IMG/VR virus record: IMGVR_UViG_3300042400_000575
Location: 1-42,888 of that record
DNA length: 42,888 bases
Direction: 5' to 3' (one strand)
Source of the DNA: a virus
A program made the position numbers and the translations under genes. Positions 2,472-36,650 of this stretch are shown here, piece by piece (the stretch's first letter is position 1; each line of letters starts with the position of its first letter). The notes under the pieces are model-generated. The model was not told where the DNA came from. It was given only the letters and a program-made list of their open reading frames with translations, and ran no database searches.

Positions 2472-5400
2472 CTAAGCTACGCTTTCAGCCAGCATAGCTC
2501 TTTGGGTACTTAGTTGCTTTGAACTATCTGCAACAAGCTTTATTGTTAGATTCTTTAAATCACTGATTTCATTAAGCAGCTCTTCAAAGACACCAGATGA
2601 GTTATTCAGTCCTAAATCTTTAGTTGTCTGAGCGTTAACTACATATTCCTGTCCATGTACGATACCAGCAAAATCATCTACTCCAATATTTCCAGTATAT
2701 CCTCCAGACTGGAATCCAAAGTAATCCTTCAGAGGAATATTATATCTATCTGCTGCACTTAGATAACTATTGGCAAGACGAACATAAGAGTCATACATTG
2801 CTTGGTTAGCATTTTCACCACGCTTCTCGTTGGTATTAAACCCAGTGCCATACTTATTAAGTATAGCATTGTCTTGCATCTCATTGGTACTCTGCCACCA
2901 GTCTTTATGAATCTTTTGGAATCTACTTACAACACCCATTATCTCTGTATAGGCAGATAGGTTGTTTGCTCTAGCTGCTTGAGAAGCTAAGTATTCGCTT
3001 TGAGCACTATCTTGTAGTGATTGTTGAACAGCTGAGTACGCTACTTGTGCATCTTCTGGGGCTCTGTCACCAAGTGACTTTATTATCTTCATCATAGTTG
3101 GGTCTGACAATGATGAACCACTTAGCCCCGATAGTTGCTTCAAGTAAGAAGTATCATCTGCCTGAGTATCGAAGCCTTGTATATCTATAATTGCTTTTTC
3201 AAACTCTTGAGAGCCTATAGTTAATCCTGTTGCTTTTGCAAAGTCAATTCTCTCCTGAGTGCCAAGCGTATGTCCAGCAGTGAAAGTAGAAGCTGATAAG
3301 GGCGCTGTTTCTTTTGCTTTAGCATCTGCCTGTGCTTGGTACAGCAATTTAATATAGTCACCCATACCTGTCTCTGTGCCAGTAAGCAAAACACTTAATG
3401 TCTCATCTCCAAATAAAGACGCAAACTGCGACTCAAGACTTGCTTGTAACTCAGTGATGTAATCTATAAACGTATCGTTAATATCGCCAAGAGTAGTTGA
3501 ATCATCTGAAGTAGCTAAAGAGCTAATCTCATTTGCCAATACAAGTGATTGATATTGATAGTCAGCCAATGAAGTTGCATTTGTTTTAATGTTATTTGCA
3601 TAGTCATTAGCAGACTTTGTAAAATCAGCAACATATCCAGTGAAATCAGTATTGTTTGCAATAGCAGTTTCAATCAGTGTGTACATTGAGCTGTATTGAG
3701 CCTGTGAGCTACTTAGAGTTGTACCCATTGCAGTATCTCTAATGGACTTAGAAAGGTCATTTAGACTAGCTACAGCGTTAATTATGCTCTGTATTGAGTT
3801 CAGCTCACTATCACGAGCTTCTTCTAGCTTTGATATTACATCATTAGCATTCTCAAGCGTAGCTGTACCTATTAATGGATATAGTTCAGCCAGTTTCTTG
3901 AATGCTGTAGGATTTAGTATTCTATCAATTCGTGAGAACAATTCAACATAACTATTTCTAGCATTCTCAGCTGACTCAGATGCTTCATCAAATGCGCTAC
4001 TTAGAAGAATTACTCTTCCATATAGGTCTTGTCCAGCTTCTGTTGTGGTATCAATACCATCAACCAGCTCTTTGAAACCAGCTTTGCTATCTGGCATAGT
4101 TAAGTTGAGTCTATCAAACTGCTCTACCAATAGTGATACTTTGTACATAGTTTGTTCTGACTCAGCTAGGAACCCATCTATGTAGTCAGAGATACCACTT
4201 GCAAGCTGTTCGATACCACCAGCTCCAGCTATCATTGCTTGAGTCAACATAATGCTATCTATGCCTACAGATGAAAGCATAAGACCCAATGAGTCTAGTG
4301 CGTTGTATAATGAATATAGCTCCTCTGCTGTTCCACCTGCCGCATCCATAAGCTCTATAAGACCATTGCTTAAGTCTTTGGTTACATTATTAGCATTTGC
4401 TATAGACTGCATTAATGCTTCAAAGCCTACATCACCTTGCTTATTTAGTATGTCAAGATATGAAATATCATCAAATGCATAACCCAAACGGTTGATGTAG
4501 TATTCAGCTTCTTCCATACCTACTGACACACGACTCATCGTCTCAAATAGACCCTCACCTACATTTTGAAAGGCTGTTAACAGTGGAAATGTGGTTAGCG
4601 CAATATCATCACCAATTTTGCCAAATATAGCACTTAGCGTTTCTTGTATCTCATCACCAGTCTTACCCTTGAGGGAGATTTTCCCAATGGATACAACAAA
4701 GTTATCAAGGCTTGCCCCTACAGATAAGGCGGATGCATCTAACGCATTGCCAGCAAGCATTGTAGTATCATATAGTCCACCTAGCACAAGACTGAATTGT
4801 CGTTCTAACTCGCCATTCAATTCGTCAAAGTGAGTGACTATTGATGTACTCGATGACTTTTTAAACCACGACTTCTTGCTTACTGTAGTTGATATAGTTT
4901 GATACGCACTACCCTCAAATTGCTCTTTGGCATTTTGTAATAGGGCGTCTGCAAAAGTTATACCAGAGTCTGTCATATTTTGAGATACTGAGGTTTTGCC
5001 GAATATCCCGCCTGCAATCTTCGAAATAAGTGCGTTCCCTGCTAACAGGAACGCATTAGACAAAATCCCACCTATGTTTAATGGGGACTTGTCCAAAAGA
5101 GTAAGAGTTTTGTCTATACGACTATCTATACTATTTTGAATAGACGACTTTCTTGTAATATTAAAACCTTCGTAACCTTCACCAAGCGCAAAACCACCTT
5201 GCCGTATCAATAGGCTTGAAACCCCACCAATCTTCTGGTCAATAGATATAAGCGATTTATTCATCTGTGAAATTAACGCAAACTCAGGCTTAGCTATATC
5301 TCCCATAAGCTCAAGAGAGTTAGCTATTGACTCTGAAGCCTTTGATGCATCCCCAAGAACAGAACCTTTACCATCATTTGCAGCCATAGAAGAGAATGCG

Positions 5401-20085: not shown

Positions 20086-20349
20086 ATGAGTACACAAAAT
20101 GATTTACTAGGGCAAGCACTTAAGCCTATGATTACAGAGATAATTGGTGAGCATATAAATGCTTTAGGGATAGAAGAAAAGATAAACGAAGCTATAGGTG
20201 GAATTGCTCAAAATACCACTAAATTACTATCAGTGTCTTATAACGGAAGCGAACCCGTTGATGTTGGGGTAGTGCATAAGCAATTTGAGTTGATTACTAA
20301 GATTGTAGCTAGTGGAGCTAATTTAATGCTTAGTGGACAAGCTGGGAAT
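20086..20349 (+). CDS. MoxR-like AAA+ ATPase, exon 1 (up to the Walker A motif)
   Basis: 88 codons from the ATG at 20086 (AGGAGATGATAAA upstream). It reads MSTQNDLLGQALKPMITEII, an acidic helical region, then ANLMLSGQAGN. It breaks off inside the P-loop: without splicing, three further codons lead to a stop at 20361. The exon ends GGGAAT, which pairs with GTTCCC downstream to form the intron P1 helix with the obligatory U-G pair at the splice site. Joined to exon 2 it gives a 374-aa ATPase with G84-Q-A-G-N-S-K-S91 as Walker A. The family remodels or loads protein complexes; in phages it is usually paired with the gene that follows exon 2. Confidence 0.88.
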
Positions 20350-20600
20350 GAACTTTACTAGTTCCCTTTCAGAGTAATCTGTCAAAATAAATTCCTCTAA
20401 TTGCTGGAACGTCCTTAGAGTCTATATAACTACAACGTGATTAGAAATGATGAGCGTGAATGTTTGAAAATATATAGAATTGGAAAATCAGCAGGTAAGC
20501 ACCGTATGGGTGAAACTTCAACGACTAGTCGAAAGACGTAGGGCTAAGTAGTCCGAAATGGGGAACTCCGTTTTATGAAATTGTAGCTTGTCCAGTTATA

Positions 20601-20609
20601 TGGTATAAT
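20601..20609 (+). promoter_or_regulatory. Extended -10 (TGGTATAAT) for the intron endonuclease
   Basis: TGGTATAAT 28 bases before the ATG at 20637; a TTGTAG lies 17 bases further up as a possible -35. In longer, read-through RNA, TGTCC just upstream (20590-20594) can pair with GGACA over the ribosome site (20628-20632), helped by TGGTA/TACCA between them. An RNA starting at this promoter lacks the TGTCC strand, so its ribosome site would be free. Confidence 0.55.
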
Positions 20610-20636
20610 ACATTTACCAAAACTAAAGGACATACA

Positions 20637-21272
20637 ATGGAAGTTTTTATTGATGTAGAAAATTATGAAGGATTATACGCTGTAAGTAATTATGGCAATG
20701 TATTATCTTATGCAAAGAATGATGGCAATGGCAATAGAGATAGACTGCTTAAGTTGGGAGTTAGTTCTAAAAAATCTGGTGAGCATACAACCTATAGAAA
20801 CGTAACTTTTTCTAAGGATGGAATAGTAAAAAGATTTCAAGTACACCAATTGGTAGCAAAAGCTTTTATTGCTAACCCACTTAATAAACCTCATGTCAAT
20901 CACATTGATAATGATGGCTCCAACAATCACGTATCTAATTTAGAGTGGACTACCCCTAAAGAGAATATGCAACATTCATCTGTTCAAGGTAGACAAGATA
21001 AGAGTAGAAAGATGGGTGGAGATAAGCTTGGCAAGATAAAATCATTCAAAGCAAAAGTAAAACTTCATAATTTAATTGGACAACAATCTGGAAATACTAA
21101 AATAATCAGCATATTAGAATTTGGCAAACATCCAAAGGGTGAGTGTAAATGTTTGAGATGTGGAGCTGTTTTTAGAAATGATTTGACTAGCTTTATTGGT
21201 GGTGCTAAATCATCTTGCAGAAGTTGTGCAATAAAATTACATTGGAAAAAGAAAAAATGGATGAAGATATAG
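20637..21272 (+). CDS. Intron-encoded HNH homing endonuclease
   Basis: 211 aa. NUMOD4 motif at the N terminus (ENYEGLYAVSNYGNVLSY), then an HNH_3 domain: QVHQLVAKAFI...NKPHVNHIDNDGSNNHVSNLEWTTPKENMQHS at about residues 65-120, with catalytic His in VNHIDND and the Asn of SNLEW. The C-terminal third has a Cys4 ribbon (CKCLRC...SSCRSC) and a basic tail, probably for DNA recognition. The ATG at 20637 follows AAAGGACATACA. It would cut the intronless allele of the ATPase gene and so spread the intron. The stop codon is within the intron S element, so the gene end is constrained by the ribozyme. Confidence 0.9.
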   Translation: MEVFIDVENYEGLYAVSNYGNVLSYAKNDGNGNRDRLLKLGVSSKKSGEHTTYRNVTFSKDGIVKRFQVHQLVAKAFIANPLNKPHVNHIDNDGSNNHVSNLEWTTPKENMQHSSVQGRQDKSRKMGGDKLGKIKSFKAKVKLHNLIGQQSGNTKIISILEFGKHPKGECKCLRCGAVFRNDLTSFIGGAKSSCRSCAIKLHWKKKKWMKI

Positions 21273-21346
21273 TCTGGACTGCATAGAGATATGCAGTTGA
21301 GTTAAAAGCTCAGACTGTCAAGTAACGATTGACAGTTGAACAATCG

Positions 21347-22207
21347 AGTAAGTCACATACATTACAGCAAGTAGCTAAAGGGTTAGGAATTCCATTCCAT
21401 AGTCAATCTGTATCTATGCAAACAACCAAAACAGACTTGATTGGCTTTGTAGATGCTAATGGGGTATATAGATATAACGGCTTTATTCATGCTTTCAGAG
21501 ATGGCGGATTATTCAACCTTGATGAAATTGATGCTGGTAATCCTAATGTATTGGTAGTTCTTAATTCAGCAATTAGTAATGGATTTATAGAAACTCCTGA
21601 TGGCAATATGCTAACAAAGCATGATAATTTCCGTATGGCTTGTACAGCTAATACAGTTGGAACAGGGGCTAATACTAAGTATGTAGGGCGTAATAAGTTA
21701 GATGCTGCAACATTAGATAGATTTGCATTAGTACACTTTGAGCTAGATGAAGAGCTAGAGGAGAAGCTATGTGGAGATAAAGCACTAGCAAGTGGATTCA
21801 GAGCCATGAGAGCTGTTGCAGATGCTAAGTTTGAAGATATTATGATAACTATGCGTTCTTGTATTGGTACTGCTAAGCTTATGAAAGCTGGGATAGATGT
21901 TTATGAGGCATTGAAGATTCACTGTTTCAAGGGTATTGATGAGGATGCTAGAAACGCACTACTTAAACAATTCAAAGCTAACTATAAAACATCATCATTT
22001 ACAGCAGATAAAGCGTTCACTACTACAGCCCCTAAGATTGAGCATAGTGGCAAAGAATGTGTAATTTGTGGCAAAGGTCATATGATTGAGAAGGAAGGCA
22101 AGTACGGTAAGTTTATGGGATGTACCAACTTTCCTGAATGTATCCATACTGAGAAGGTTGTTGTGGCTAATACTACAGTAGATAGTGACCCATTTGATTT
22201 AGACTAG
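21347..22207 (+). CDS. MoxR-like AAA+ ATPase, exon 2
   Basis: 287 codons including stop. Starts SKSHTLQQVAKGLG, completing Walker A. Walker B is GGLFNLDEID (near residue 146 of the spliced protein); the sensor 1 region is FRMACTANT, then LDAATLDRFALVHFELD as in MoxR/BchI-type ATPases with an arginine-containing RF motif. The C terminus adds a topoisomerase-type Cys4 ribbon (CVICGKGHM...GCTNFPEC), a nucleic-acid or protein contact. In-frame starts near 21329 lie in the intron and are not real. The next gene, with a GEPE motif, is its usual phage partner type. Confidence 0.88.
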   Translation, partial: SKSHTLQQVAKGLGIPFHSQSVSMQTTKTDLIGFVDANGVYRYNGFIHAFRDGGLFNLDEIDAGNPNVLVVLNSAISNGFIETPDGNMLTKHDNFRMACTANTVGTGANTKYVGRNKLDAATLDRFALVHFELDEELEEKLCGDKALASGFRAMRAVADAKFEDIMITMRSCIGTAKLMKAGIDVYEALKIHCFKGIDEDARNALLKQFKANYKTSSFTADKAFTTTAPKIEHSGKECVICGKGHMIEKEGKYGKFMGCTNFPECIHTEKVVVANTTVDSDPFDLD

Positions 22208-22216
22208 GAGCATAGT

Positions 22217-23008
22217 ATGAAAATAAAACATGATACTAACCAAGAAATACATATTGAGTTCAATAGCGTATATGATATTCAACAGTTCTTGATAGAGAAT
22301 GAGAATGTTAAAACTAAAAGAAAAGACTCTAAAAGGAAAGTTGATGATGATGACGATATTTCTTTTACTGGAACACATACCTATGAAGACTTTATGGATA
22401 TTGTAGAAAATGGAAGTAATGAAATAATCAGTAAGATTAAATTAGCTTCACATAAATACGCCGATACCTTAGATGATAAATATGAAACTACTAAAGATTA
22501 CAAGTTTGATGTATATGGTCAATTCTTTGATGTAGGGTTAGTATTGAGTGGAGAGCCTGAAGCATGGGTTAATCCAATAGATGATGATGTTAAGAAGCAG
22601 ATACAAATTAGTGTTAATGCCTCTTATCTCTCAGACGTTAAACATGAAGATGTAATCAATAATGCTAGTCGTATTATTGGAATGATATTAACTCTTGAAA
22701 AGATGGGTATTGAAACCAAGCTATTACTTAACTTTAGAAGTAATGATATGTACAACAAGAACAGCAGAAAGATATTCATGGTTAGTCTTATAGCTAAAGA
22801 ATATGAGCAAGGTATTGATTACAAAAAACTATCTTGTTTACTTCATACCTCAATGTTTAGACGTGGAGTATTTAGAATGAGAGAAGTTATAGTTGGCGAT
22901 GATATGCAATCTTATGGAACGACTAAACCTCTTTCAGAAGATACTTTAATAGATAAAAGTAGTTCAGTAGATGAGCTAGAATATAAATTATTTAGGAGTT
23001 CAAAATGA
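22217..23008 (+). CDS. Partner protein of the MoxR-like ATPase (DUF7192-like)
   Basis: 263 aa, GGAG before the ATG at 22217. FTGTHTYEDFMDIVENGS, then VYGQFFDVGLVLSGEPEAWVNP and YLSDVKHEDVINNASRIIGM follow the pattern of a phage family (I believe DUF7192) that is regularly encoded next to AAA+ MoxR-type ATPases. The N terminus has an Asp run (KVDDDDDISF). MoxR ATPases usually act with a substrate-binding partner, so a joint function is inferred; the substrate is unknown. Starts ten bases after the ATPase stop. Confidence 0.65.
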   Translation: MKIKHDTNQEIHIEFNSVYDIQQFLIENENVKTKRKDSKRKVDDDDDISFTGTHTYEDFMDIVENGSNEIISKIKLASHKYADTLDDKYETTKDYKFDVYGQFFDVGLVLSGEPEAWVNPIDDDVKKQIQISVNASYLSDVKHEDVINNASRIIGMILTLEKMGIETKLLLNFRSNDMYNKNSRKIFMVSLIAKEYEQGIDYKKLSCLLHTSMFRRGVFRMREVIVGDDMQSYGTTKPLSEDTLIDKSSSVDELEYKLFRSSK

Positions 23009-23349
23009 TATTACTATCAGATAACACAAAAAAGTGTGAAAAAGGTTTCTACTACGTAGTTAAAGCAAAAGGCAATTGTTATTACACAGTCATGCAACAT
23101 GGACAAAGAACGTGGGTAGCTAATTGTATTACTCACAATGAAATGGATGCTCAATACTTTGTGGGTAATAGCTATGCAGTTATTGCTCAGTTAAAAGAGT
23201 ATGCAGGAAGTGAGTTCAAGATATATCTCTCAAGAGACTTAACAGACTTTAGAAAAGGAGTAATGGCAGTTTTGGTAGGAATACAACCAAACCATAACGT
23301 AACAGCTAGTGCGGAAACAGACAAAATATTAATAGGGGTAATGAAATGA
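23005..23349 (+). CDS. Early protein, unknown
   Basis: 114 aa, overlapping its neighbours at both ends by four bases (ATGA). Begins MILLSDNTKKCEKGFYYVVK, mixed alpha/beta, with TVMQHGQRTWVANCITHNEMDA in the middle. No motif recognised. Confidence 0.6.
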   Translation: MILLSDNTKKCEKGFYYVVKAKGNCYYTVMQHGQRTWVANCITHNEMDAQYFVGNSYAVIAQLKEYAGSEFKIYLSRDLTDFRKGVMAVLVGIQPNHNVTASAETDKILIGVMK

Positions 23350-23687
23350 AAGGCATAAGAGGCATTTGCATATCAACCAAAGATTACACAATCAAAGAAG
23401 TGTGGATTAAAGACTATAAAGACTATTATAAATATCTTGAATGTGATACATTTGATGCAGTAACCAATGCTCTAGGAGATATTAGTGCCTTTATAGATGA
23501 TGAGGGATTATTGAAGAGTGGCAATCTAGTTGTAGATATAAGCCCATTTGCTTTTCCTCAACCATATGCAGGAAGCATAGTGCTAGTAGGTGGTGTAGAT
23601 GATGAAGGTGAAACTTTACCATTACCTGATTATGTAACCACAGACATGGTGGAAGAATTTGCTAAAATAGTTGGAGAGACAAGATGA
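23346..23687 (+). CDS. DUF3846-like phage protein
   Basis: 113 aa. DISAFIDDEGLLKSGNLVVDISPFAFPQPYAGSIVLVGGVDDEGETLPL matches the core of the DUF3846 family (D-x-x-DDEG, then a G-x-x-VLxG-x-DDEG strand pair). The function of the family is unknown. Coupled to both neighbours by ATGA overlaps. Confidence 0.7.
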   Translation: MKGIRGICISTKDYTIKEVWIKDYKDYYKYLECDTFDAVTNALGDISAFIDDEGLLKSGNLVVDISPFAFPQPYAGSIVLVGGVDDEGETLPLPDYVTTDMVEEFAKIVGETR

Positions 23688-23890
23688 GACAGTGGAAAGA
23701 ATTGTACGGAGCCGATGCTGATGGCAATCGTGGACAATGGATGACAGTGTTTGAATTAGAACCTAGTGATGAATTCAGTATCATTGAACAGATACTAGAT
23801 GCTTATCCTGATGCTGATGATAGACCTAGTAGCATGACCATTGAAATAGATGGAATTGAATTTGAAATTGATATTGAGGAATACTTATGA
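23684..23890 (+). CDS. Small acidic protein, unknown
   Basis: 68 aa, pI clearly acidic (AYPDADDRPSSM, EIDGIEFEIDIEEYL). ATGA overlaps with both neighbours. Acidic small early proteins often bind host enzymes, but nothing here names a target. Confidence 0.6.
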   Translation: MRQWKELYGADADGNRGQWMTVFELEPSDEFSIIEQILDAYPDADDRPSSMTIEIDGIEFEIDIEEYL

Positions 23891-24156
23891 AAACAAAAAG
23901 AGTACAGATGGTATTTACAGACCATGCTATCGAAAGAGCATTAGAACGGCTTAGAGGCTCTAAAGTAGTTAATCCAAGTAAGGATATGTGTAATAGCATG
24001 GAAGTGGCTTTAAGATGCATTATTGAGCCTTCTGGTATTAGTTTCCTAGAGGGAGCTACTTATAAAGCTAGAATTGAAGGTTATGATGATTACAGGGCTG
24101 TAATTGTTGTTGAAGATGGAGTGCATATAGTGAAATCTGTAGTGCCTGTAATTTAA
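23887..24156 (+). CDS. Small protein with an HAIERALER-like motif, unknown
   Basis: 89 aa. FTDHAIERALERL near the N terminus resembles the first helix of DUF4258 or RelE-type folds, and the C-terminal half (ATYKARIEGYDDYRAVIVVEDGVHIVKSV) alternates strands as in those folds. Resemblance is weak, and no toxin partner is visible. Coupled upstream by an ATGA overlap. Confidence 0.55.
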   Translation: MKTKRVQMVFTDHAIERALERLRGSKVVNPSKDMCNSMEVALRCIIEPSGISFLEGATYKARIEGYDDYRAVIVVEDGVHIVKSVVPVI

Positions 24157-27298: not shown

Positions 27299-27979
27299 AT
27301 GTTAGAAAAATCACAAGTACCAGTTCCATTGTTATTAGAAGATATAGGAATGTATTATCCAACTGCTAATGCTGTAAAAAAGCGAAGATATGGAATTTAT
27401 AAATGCTATTGTGGAAAAGAGTTTAGAGCAATGGCTCAAAGTATTAAGAGCGGAAATACAATAAGTTGTGGATGCTATCACATAGAGCAAGCGTCACAAC
27501 AGCTTACAAGTCATGGAATGTCTGGAACTAGATTATATAAGATATACAGAGGGATGAAGGATAGGGTATTGAATATAAAATGTTCTGCATTTGAACATTA
27601 CGGTGGAAGAGGAATAAAAATATGTTCTGAATGGGAAGGTGAGTTTGTTAAATTTTATGATTGGGCTATCGCTAATGGATATGATGACGACTTGACTATA
27701 GATAGAATAAATAATGATGGCAATTATGAGCCTTCAAATTGCAGATGGGTAAGCATGACTGTTCAAAATAGAAATACAAGCCTATTGTATTCACATAATA
27801 CAAGTGGCTATAGAGGAGTGTGTTTTGATAAAAGACGCTGTAGATATATATCATCAATAGGTATTGGTGGTAAGAGAATTAGACTTGGAATGTTTGATAC
27901 AGCTATTGATGCTGCTAAAAAATATGATTCTTATGTTCTTGAGAATAATCTTGAACATACAATTAATGGAGTAATATGA
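27299..27979 (+). CDS. Free-standing HNH endonuclease with AP2 domain
   Basis: 226 aa. N-terminal Cys-rich motif (YKCYCGKEF...TISCGC), linker SHGMSGTRLYKIYRGMKDR, then the HNH-type core YGGRGIKICSEW...LTIDRINNDGNYEPSNCRWVSM at about residues 100-155, and a C-terminal AP2 DNA-binding domain (NTSGYRGVCFDKRR...LGMFDTAIDAAKKYD). This is the common phage homing endonuclease layout. Not inside an intron: the flanking genes are complete. Its end overlaps the start of the primase gene (ATGATG). Own promoter and a masked ribosome site suggest tightly limited expression. Confidence 0.88.
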   Translation: MLEKSQVPVPLLLEDIGMYYPTANAVKKRRYGIYKCYCGKEFRAMAQSIKSGNTISCGCYHIEQASQQLTSHGMSGTRLYKIYRGMKDRVLNIKCSAFEHYGGRGIKICSEWEGEFVKFYDWAIANGYDDDLTIDRINNDGNYEPSNCRWVSMTVQNRNTSLLYSHNTSGYRGVCFDKRRCRYISSIGIGGKRIRLGMFDTAIDAAKKYDSYVLENNLEHTINGVI

Positions 27980-35914: not shown

Positions 35915-35946
35915 ATAACATAAGTGGTATAATGCACTTATGTTAT
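35915..35946 (+). promoter_or_regulatory. Promoter framed by a 12-bp perfect inverted repeat
   Basis: TGGTATAAT extended -10 at 35925-35933, about 30 bases before the HNH start at 35964. ATAACATAAGTG (35915-35926) and CACTTATGTTAT (35935-35946) are perfect complements around an eight-base loop that contains the TATAAT. As DNA it could be an operator; in read-through RNA it is a strong hairpin. Confidence 0.6.
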
Positions 35947-35963
35947 ACAACAAGGGGGTACTA

Positions 35964-36650
35964 ATGTGGGTTGTAGGTTTCGATGAAAAATATTCAATAA
36001 CAAAAGATGGTATGGTTTTTTCTTATAGTAAAAACAAACATGGCGTTGAAAGAAAATTGGTTCCAGATAAGAATGGGTATTTAACTGTAAACCTATACTT
36101 AGATGGAAAACCTTATTGTAAAAAAATACATAGAGAGGTTGCTAAGGCATATATATATCCTTATCATGGAGAGCAAGTTAACCATAAGAATGGAATTAAG
36201 TCTGATAATAGAGTTGAAAACTTAGAATGGTGTACTGCATCTGAAAATGTTAATCATTCATTAGACAACGGCTTAAAACAAATAGGGAAAAAATATACCA
36301 ACAACTCCACTGGATATTATGGAGTTAAAAGTAGTGGAGATAAATTCACCGCTAGAGTTAGGAGGGGAAATAAGGAGTTGTATCTTGGAACATTTGATGA
36401 TGCAATATCAGCATACAACACTGTATTGAATGCTCTTAAGGATGAAATTGAAGGAATAAGTATTAAAGAGTATAAAAGTGCATCAGTAATATATATGTAT
36501 GATTTGAACATGAATCTTATTGATACATTTCCATCAATATCTGATGCTGAAAGAAAGACTGGAGTTGCTAGTCAACATATTGGAAAGGTTATTCTTGGAA
36601 AAAGAATGACAGCTGGAGGTTATATTTGGAAGAGGGAAAATATATGTTAA
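35964..36650 (+). CDS. Free-standing HNH endonuclease (NUMOD4, HNH, AP2, NUMOD1)
   Basis: 228 aa from the ATG at 35964, preceded by AAGGGGGTACTA; an earlier in-frame ATG at 35940 sits in the palindrome and lacks a site. Order of domains: NUMOD4-like start (MWVVGFDEKYSITKDGMVFS), HNH_3 core (KKIHREVAKAYI...GEQVNHKNGIKSDNRVENLEWCTASENVNHS), AP2 (STGYYGVKSSGDKF...LGTFDDAISAYN), and a NUMOD1 helix-turn-helix (NLIDTFPSISDAERKTGVAS). A homing endonuclease not within an intron; it is inserted between the MazG-like gene and its former coupled neighbour. Confidence 0.88.
   Translation: MWVVGFDEKYSITKDGMVFSYSKNKHGVERKLVPDKNGYLTVNLYLDGKPYCKKIHREVAKAYIYPYHGEQVNHKNGIKSDNRVENLEWCTASENVNHSLDNGLKQIGKKYTNNSTGYYGVKSSGDKFTARVRRGNKELYLGTFDDAISAYNTVLNALKDEIEGISIKEYKSASVIYMYDLNMNLIDTFPSISDAERKTGVASQHIGKVILGKRMTAGGYIWKRENIC

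Follow-up and report, generated by a model that had tools for sequence, protein, structure and literature searches.

A group I intron inside the Walker A codons of a viral CobS-like ATPase gene, with same-site introns in other P-loop nucleoside triphosphatases

The window analysed here is a virus record of 42,888 bases (IMG/VR IMGVR_UViG_3300042400_000575, positions 1 to 42,888), in which the gene of a CobS-like AAA_5 ATPase is cut within its Walker A motif by an insert that we read as a mobile group I intron with an I-HmuI-like NUMOD4-HNH endonuclease in its P8 loop. On the + strand, an open reading frame (ORF) at 20086-20361 reads ...LSGQAGNELY and stops, and the frame picks up again at 21347 as SKSHTLQQ to end at 22207. 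Two close IMG/VR relatives, the contigs L002 and L003, encode the whole ATPase without interruption. The main features of the locus are the following:

20086..20349, + strand: exon 1 of the CobS-like AAA_5 ATPase, 88 codons, ending in the GxxGx of Walker A
20350..21346, + strand: group I intron, 997 nucleotides (nt), with exact empty sites in L002 and L003 and Rfam RF00028 in two pieces
20637..21272, + strand: ORF of a NUMOD4-HNH_3 endonuclease (phrog_59), 211 amino acids, with NUMOD4 and HNH_3 above Pfam cutoffs, in the P8 loop
21150..21227, + strand: C-terminal four-cysteine module of the endonuclease (C172, C175, C194, C197), invariant in 6/6 HNHs of Walker A introns
21347..22207, + strand: exon 2 of the ATPase, from SKSHTLQ... 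up to the stop codon, with AAA_5 and a Zn_ribbon_Top1 at the C-terminus
20346..21362, + strand: silently recoded exon flanks, differing from L003 at 20346, 21347-21349, 21353-21355 and 21361-21362, with the intron between them

The contigs L002 and L003 provide a natural empty site, since they join window position 20349 straight to 21347 and so define the insert as exactly 20350-21346, 997 nt, with its terminal G at 21346. The spliced ATPase of 374 amino acids keeps its reading frame and differs from the proteins of L002 and L003 at 0/374 residues. A scan of 20300-21400 alone with the Rfam model Intron_gpI (RF00028) returned two collinear pieces, one at model positions 5-158 with 39.4 bits (E 2.6e-8) and one that ends at model position 253 with 29.9 bits (E 1.9e-5). 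Neither reaches the gathering score of 50, presumably owing to the HNH ORF, which breaks up the core. Whole-window Rfam scans gave no Intron_gpI match, at gathering or at E<=0.5, and no intron was matched in an equally long control (23000-24100), where the best E was 0.53. The natural empty site is the stronger evidence for an intron, ahead of the covariance matches. At the level of sequence, 20350-21346 is a group I intron beyond reasonable doubt, and it almost certainly splices. An earlier note on this DNA had already proposed a group I intron within the Walker A motif of the ATPase, with a halt after LSGQAGN, a resumption as SKSHTLQQ 997 bases on, and splice points deduced from P1, P10 and a terminal G at 21346; its coordinates proved exact and agree with both empty sites. 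Two of the checks it had suggested came out in its favour, as the covariance search did find matches, sub-threshold and only in the scan of 20300-21400, and the spliced 374-residue protein aligned as identical to its intronless homologues in L002 and L003.

The anatomy of the intron RNA was taken from the unconstrained minimum free energy (MFE) structure of the ORF-less core, with P1, P10 and P7 read as pairings in the sequence:

20344..20366, + strand: P1, exon GGGAAU (20344-20349) with GUUCCC (20361-20366), 6/6 pairs, U.G at the splice site
20354..20359, + strand: intron strand of P10, 6 contiguous pairs with exon 2 at 21347-21352
20392-20397/20560-20565, + strand: P3, from the MFE of the ORF-less core and the Rfam alignment
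20401-20407/20488-20494, + strand: P4, then the P5 region, from the same two sources
20500-20503/20509-20512, + strand: P6a, from the same two sources
20523..20527, + strand: P7 5' strand GACTA, inside the R element (20517-20527), pairing read from the sequence
20528-20530/20535-20537, + strand: P7.1, hairpin predicted in the MFE of the ORF-less core
20541-20545/20550-20554, + strand: P7.2, hairpin predicted in the same way
20567-20574/21254-21261, + strand: P8 in the MFE fold, with the HNH ORF in its loop
21270..21274, + strand: P7 3' strand TAGTC, inside the S element (21264-21274), holding the stop codon of the HNH ORF
21278-21285/21290-21297, + strand: P9 in the MFE fold
21298-21303/21307-21312, + strand: P9.1 in the MFE fold
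21313-21321/21329-21337, + strand: P9.2 in the MFE fold

The fold recovers P1, P3, P4, P8, P9, P9.1 and P9.2 together with the two hairpins, while P7 was taken from the sequence because an MFE structure cannot hold its pseudoknot. The MFE of the core lies 3.2 standard deviations under 200 dinucleotide shuffles, at least one of which is lower still. A pair of hairpins, P7.1 and P7.2, between P7 and P3 marks subgroup IA2 (td-like). Here two hairpins are predicted at 20528-20537 and 20541-20554, at the places of P7.1 and P7.2, so that the intron may be a candidate for this subgroup. Of the td-like P, Q, R, S and P9 elements previously ascribed to this intron, R (from 20517) and S (from 21264) are present and P9 is in the predicted fold.

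The intron enters Walker A after its fifth residue and before its sixth, GxxGx/[GS]K[ST] (the slash marks the insertion). Regarding its host, the ATPase matches AAA_5, a C-terminal Zn_ribbon_Top1 and the phrog_249 profile (3.1e-46), as well as the CobS model TIGR01650 with 40.9 bits, far under its cutoff of 558.55; no MoxR-specific model occurs among its profile matches. Against the PDB, its family profile found a solved CobS (9ujv, 2.3e-16) and midasin. The gene is better called a CobS-like AAA_5 ATPase (phrog_249) than the MoxR-like ATPase initially proposed. The claim that such genes are not among the usual intron hosts holds for the phrog_249 family, but an HNH-split related AAA ATPase, gp24, was already known in VCO139/JA1 (PMC3670811, in excerpt). 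Among 86 CobS-like loci checked (6 from phages, 80 from IMG/VR), Walker A is unbroken in 85, and the remaining one (L093) begins at a contig end. Spliced codon 89 of the window (21347-21349) encodes serine (GQAGNSKS), as in the intronless alleles, where Walker A otherwise has a near-invariant glycine: at this position the 85 relatives have Gly in 81 cases, Phe in 2 and Ser in L002 and L003. As a side observation, Staphylococcus phage 812a (L015) differs from HMGUsa2 in that its annotation gives this CobS-like gene as a pair of overlapping ORFs; L014 is a Kayvirus.

The exons next to the intron carry a signature of their own. The ATPase coding sequence (CDS) of 1125 nt contains 10 differences between L003 and the window, of which 9 lie within CDS 261-280 and the tenth at 20307 (9/20 against 1/1105 elsewhere, Fisher p 2e-16), whereas L002 shows 16 differences, those same 10 plus 6 at 399-435; all of them are silent. 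For Ser-Lys-Ser the window uses AGT-AAG-TCA and the intronless alleles use TCA-AAG-AGC, so that both serine codons flip between AGY and TCN. In a three-way comparison of ~3.77 kb, private differences number 68 in L003, 14 in the window and 6 in L002, which makes L003 the most diverged. Nine of the 14 of the window fall at -3 to +16 of the junction, and none of 20,000 random draws placed 9/14 within 20 nt of it. The exon of L002 and L003 would lose one pair in P1 (predicted duplex energy -0.7 versus -6.7 kcal/mol for the window exon) and the first three pairs in P10. Since L003 is the most diverged and yet shares its intronless codons with L002, a gain in the window is the simpler history. Short clusters of differences among the three sister contigs also occur away from the intron and suggest small gene-conversion patches.

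Exon co-conversion during homing is established for T4 (PMC2988022, in excerpt), and excess diversity next to intron borders has been described in yeast mitochondria (PMC5378118, likewise in excerpt). The recoded flanks of the window intron fit this process, and we consider homing with co-conversion very probable. The endonuclease would have made a nick or a cut in the P-loop codons of an allele without the intron, and repair off an intron-bearing donor would have copied the intron with at least ~20 nt of donor exon. The donor bases, silently different from those of the recipient, would include guide-paired ones, so that the intron may have brought its own splice-site code. Several searches gave candidates that were discarded: the AGY-Lys-TCN Walker A pattern brought 9 loci, all chance matches; the intron guide patterns brought 2 and 0 loci, the 2 carrying no intron; and a pattern of the S/P9 region brought 9 loci that are introns at other places. 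In the genome contigs searched with the ATPase, no relative was found.

Introns at the same site are also present in other P-loop nucleoside triphosphatases (NTPases). A blastn search of the intron against 50,697 phage records had its highest-ranking matches in the Vibrio phages VCO139, JA-1 and JSF3, and an HNH search agrees (41% identity with the VCO139 HNH over 203 aligned positions). VCO139, found through DNA and HNH similarity and not through the motif, is the best annotated relative of both the intron and its HNH. It carries a 940-nt intron in an N4-gp24-like ATPase (phrog_1297), ...VAGSPGV/GKSKMFEAI..., before the sixth Walker A residue. Vibrio phage phi 1 offers the natural empty site of this intron (GSPGV/GKS), with 5 silent differences from VCO139 in 16 nt at the site against 5/174 around it (Fisher p 4e-4). 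Other interruptions were seen in this gene: in phi 1 (L119 2104-3001) an HNH splits the same ATPase ~30 residues past Walker A (...EDPTTIN/), unlike the VCO139 site, and VCO139 has a second intron after Walker B (L008 ~4255, ...RSVQAAA/) with a second HNH at 4385-4771.

In this line, viral contigs were scanned with the pattern [GGN NNN SCN GGN NNT]-gap-AATTGCTGGAA, an intron being called when the exon-1 frame closes <=3 codons past the site and an in-frame exon 2 starts with GK[ST]. Introns at GxxGx/GK[ST] made up 6/77 loci, and the other 71 look like chance. One of the six (L128) is the IMG/VR record of VCO139 itself; the five others are these:

L165: phrog_1297 host, GNPGI/GKS, from the pattern scan, supported by Rfam (49.2 and 35.6 bits)
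L177: phrog_1297 host, GSPGI/GKS, from the pattern scan, confirmed by Rfam (101.4 bits)
L149: phrog_1297 host, GPPGG/GKT, called from the pattern scan
L160: phrog_325 Dda-like SF1 helicase host, GAAGT/GKT, called from the pattern scan
L181: phrog_325 Dda-like SF1 helicase host, GAAGC/GKS, called from the pattern scan

P1 pairs 6/6 in all seven introns (7/7), even though three of its positions each vary among three to four types of pair, and swapped combinations of guide and exon pair fully in 2/42 cases. The introns of L160, in a helicase, and L165, in an AAA host, show 66% aligned identity over 999 nt, and the intron of L177 is 390 nt long with a mere remnant of the HNH C-terminus. L177 probably has another intron at ~2572, at ...KAVQAAA/ (Rfam pieces 2563-2789 and 3208-3367), which points to a second shared site in gp24-like genes. 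The sampled members of what looks like one lineage share a Walker A codon boundary in three families: CobS-like phrog_249, N4-gp24-like phrog_1297 and the Dda-like helicases of phrog_325. The only two cases found without the motif, the window and VCO139, both have the site GxxGx/GK[ST] (2/2). Among Intron_gpI matches not chosen by motif, seven have readable exon ends without GxxGx, their splice sites being approximate, and an eighth is without P1.

The endonucleases bear on this question as well. A PDB search with the endonuclease family profile gave I-HmuI (1u3e) as its sole match, over 4-128 of 199 positions, that is, the NUMOD4-HNH part. I-HmuI-type endonucleases end in a C-terminal domain of their own. 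The C-terminal DNA-binding domain of I-HmuI was not matched, and the window HNH ends instead in the four-cysteine module. The HNHs of the window, VCO139, L149, L160, L165 and L181 all have this module, which shares an Arg and an Asp besides its four invariant Cys. Among the 50,697 phage records, queries with it retrieved 6, each of them of the VCO139 type, and among the loci collected in this analysis it occurs in these introns only, bar the weak and unrelated-looking L141 (E 0.035) and L155 (E 0.002). It is lacking in two full-length HNH lookalikes, from an elemoA phage and a Rhizobium plasmid, and, among the 4 loci with close HNH relatives in viral contigs, in both translated ones (L004 and L006). 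Pfam searches with the HNH C-termini gave weak one-member matches only, several of them to zinc domains. In a tree with 15 controls, among them the remaining HNHs from the window (35940-36650), VCO139 and phi 1, the six Walker A HNHs came out as one clade (support 98/99). A second tree, of the catalytic part (137 columns, 18 rows, three distant rows dropped), still contains two subgroups whose hosts belong to more than one family, one made up of the window and VCO139 (90/84), the other of L160, L165 and L181 (92/98); L177, without a full HNH, was left out of both trees. Two minor observations are added here: the match of L155 (10141-10242, 34 amino acids, E 0.002) is to the four-cysteine module of L160, in a contig that the Walker A pattern had picked up by chance; and archaeal RNase P chains, the best weak Foldseek hits of the HNH structure model, were not used.

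Around this locus, the profile matches and annotations are these:

22217..23008, + strand: neighbouring DUF7192 protein (phrog_1909), from profile matches

Genes of 281-303 amino acids, weakly alike, sit after the CobS-like gene in the fetched Staphylococcus, Listeria and Gordonia phages. An internal promoter is unsupported, with 5 promoter-like sites against 4.8 expected. Elsewhere in the window, 35940-36650 is a NUMOD4-HNH_3-NUMOD1 endonuclease gene without a detected intron core. The HNH protein of 27299-27979, which overlaps the primase gene start at 27976, has a CxCG...SCGC-type motif at its N-terminus and an AP2 match slightly under the cutoff.

Altogether, a mobile self-splicing intron, spread by homing and belonging to a P-loop lineage, is likely to be the right overall explanation. 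That this lineage of homing introns is specialised on P-loops, a specificity which we infer, is slightly favoured by these data. The lineage would probably have moved between non-orthologous genes by recognising P-loop codons, with its guide retuned for each host. In its fullest form the proposal is that the Walker A P-loop itself has become the home of the lineage: the four-cysteine NUMOD4-HNH would read P-loop codons, tolerate silent changes and move the intron between CobS-like, N4-gp24-like AAA+ and SF1 Dda-like genes, the guide being retuned or the exon co-converted at each arrival, as an RNA counterpart of P-loop inteins. For this version we see the chances as even. In titles and abstract openings, in a literature from which subscription journals were mostly outside, we found no description of phage group I introns in Walker A or P-loops, CobS or Dda.

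Some results speak against this interpretation and have to be weighed with it. Mosaic patches also occur off the intron (a window-specific one at 24041-24054, one of L002 at exon-2 positions 135-171, and long tracts of L003), and the patch at the intron may therefore be a coincidence, at the ~1% level by our estimate. The donor allele was not found with the AGY-Lys-TCN Walker A pattern or the intron guide patterns, metagenome contigs not being searched. P10 is clear in the window and L149 only, the other five introns showing 1-2 contiguous pairs. Five of the seven introns came from a pattern that demands GxxGx, which cannot show avoidance of other sites. With the catalytic part alone, the six HNHs form one clade in 46% of bootstrap trees and L149 stays unplaced. 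Finally, the structure model of the HNH is poor (predicted local distance difference test, pLDDT, 62.8), and Foldseek found no fold match for it at E<=0.001. As a rival account, the intron may be of the usual phage homing kind and only its host gene unusual, with the Walker A position shared through independent insertions into the commonest conserved motif of phage genes and without specialisation. This is a distinct possibility, the more so as introns and inteins are known to prefer conserved active-site codons (PMC2988022, PMC5050341, both in excerpt), most cases came through the motif itself and the catalytic-domain tree does not demand one clade. Yet VCO139 was not found by motif, is the best annotated match of the window intron and has exactly the same codon boundary in a different family; the identity between L160 and L165, together with the shared C-terminal module, argues for transfer and not for repeated independent arrival; and the 7 Intron_gpI matches not chosen by motif show no GxxGx, given their approximate splice sites.

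Recoded flanks without co-conversion would mean that it was the intronless alleles that changed, either by selection for endonuclease escape or by recombination that removed the intron. This seems unlikely to us, as the recoded bases match the guide and the P10 strand of the intron itself, a change from AGY to TCN by point mutation goes via other amino acids, and loss would need two events of the same outcome, L002 being, for most of the region, the closer of the two to the window and yet sharing its intronless codons with L003. What speaks for it is that the Ser codon AGT lies one step from the expected Gly codon, so that the intron allele looks nearer to the ancestor than TCA does (Gly in 81/85 relatives), and that just two intronless contigs are available for comparison. 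A degenerate intron that no longer splices and leaves the ATPase gene split is highly improbable: each Rfam piece is below gathering and the evidence for splicing comes from sequence, but the examined core elements, the splice-site pairings and the HNH ORF are intact, the ATPase has not a single amino-acid change (0/374) and the core folds well below its shuffles (3.2 standard deviations).

If the preferred explanation of a homing lineage at P-loops is right, it has wider consequences. Homing introns are thought to be largely gene-bound, with endonuclease and guide both fitting one target. A target that is a motif common to many unrelated genes would be an escape from this dead end, allowing hops between gene families and phages and offering a potential target in almost any phage genome. 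Such introns would be a system to probe how far an endonuclease tolerates silent changes and how an intron gains splice-site pairing in a new gene. Moreover, annotations of phage genomes give a split P-loop ATPase or helicase as an HNH and a number of hypothetical proteins, VCO139 being an example, and such genes are probably under-called.

Among known systems, the td intron of T4 lies in thymidylate synthase and encodes a GIY-YIG endonuclease, whereas the window intron has an HNH in P8 and an ATPase host. They are alike in their P, Q, R, S core, in P7.1/P7.2-like hairpins, predicted ones in the window, and in homing with exon co-conversion, established for T4 (PMC2988022, in excerpt) and very probable for the window intron. 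The I-HmuI-type introns of Bacillus phages (SPO1; Bastillevirinae survey PMC11878797, as far as its available part goes) are IA-like and, as in the window, have NUMOD4-HNH endonucleases of PHROG 59 inside a core loop. Their hosts are genes of DNA polymerase, terminase, thymidylate synthase and ribonucleotide reductase, in contrast to a P-loop NTPase at Walker A in the window, and the four cysteines of the window endonuclease stand where the I-HmuI type has its C-terminal domain. Regarding the Vibrio phages, Fouts et al. 2013 (PMC3670811) described HNH genes that split the N4 gp24 homologue in VCO139/JA-1, maybe intron-borne; in the available text of that paper the words ATPase and MoxR are absent and the gp24 split is not placed in Walker A. 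VCO139/JA-1, and by the present search JSF3, have the same kind of intron and HNH as the window, at the Walker A boundary of an AAA ATPase, although the ATPase families differ (phrog_1297 versus phrog_249). Inteins in P-loops, such as TerL1-a/-b of mycobacteriophages (PMC5050341) and the archaeal VMA-b (PMC8966425), both seen in excerpt, splice as proteins and have their classic site at Lys/Thr, two residues downstream of the window intron site, but like the lineage proposed here they are homing elements in the Walker A motif of several ATPase families.

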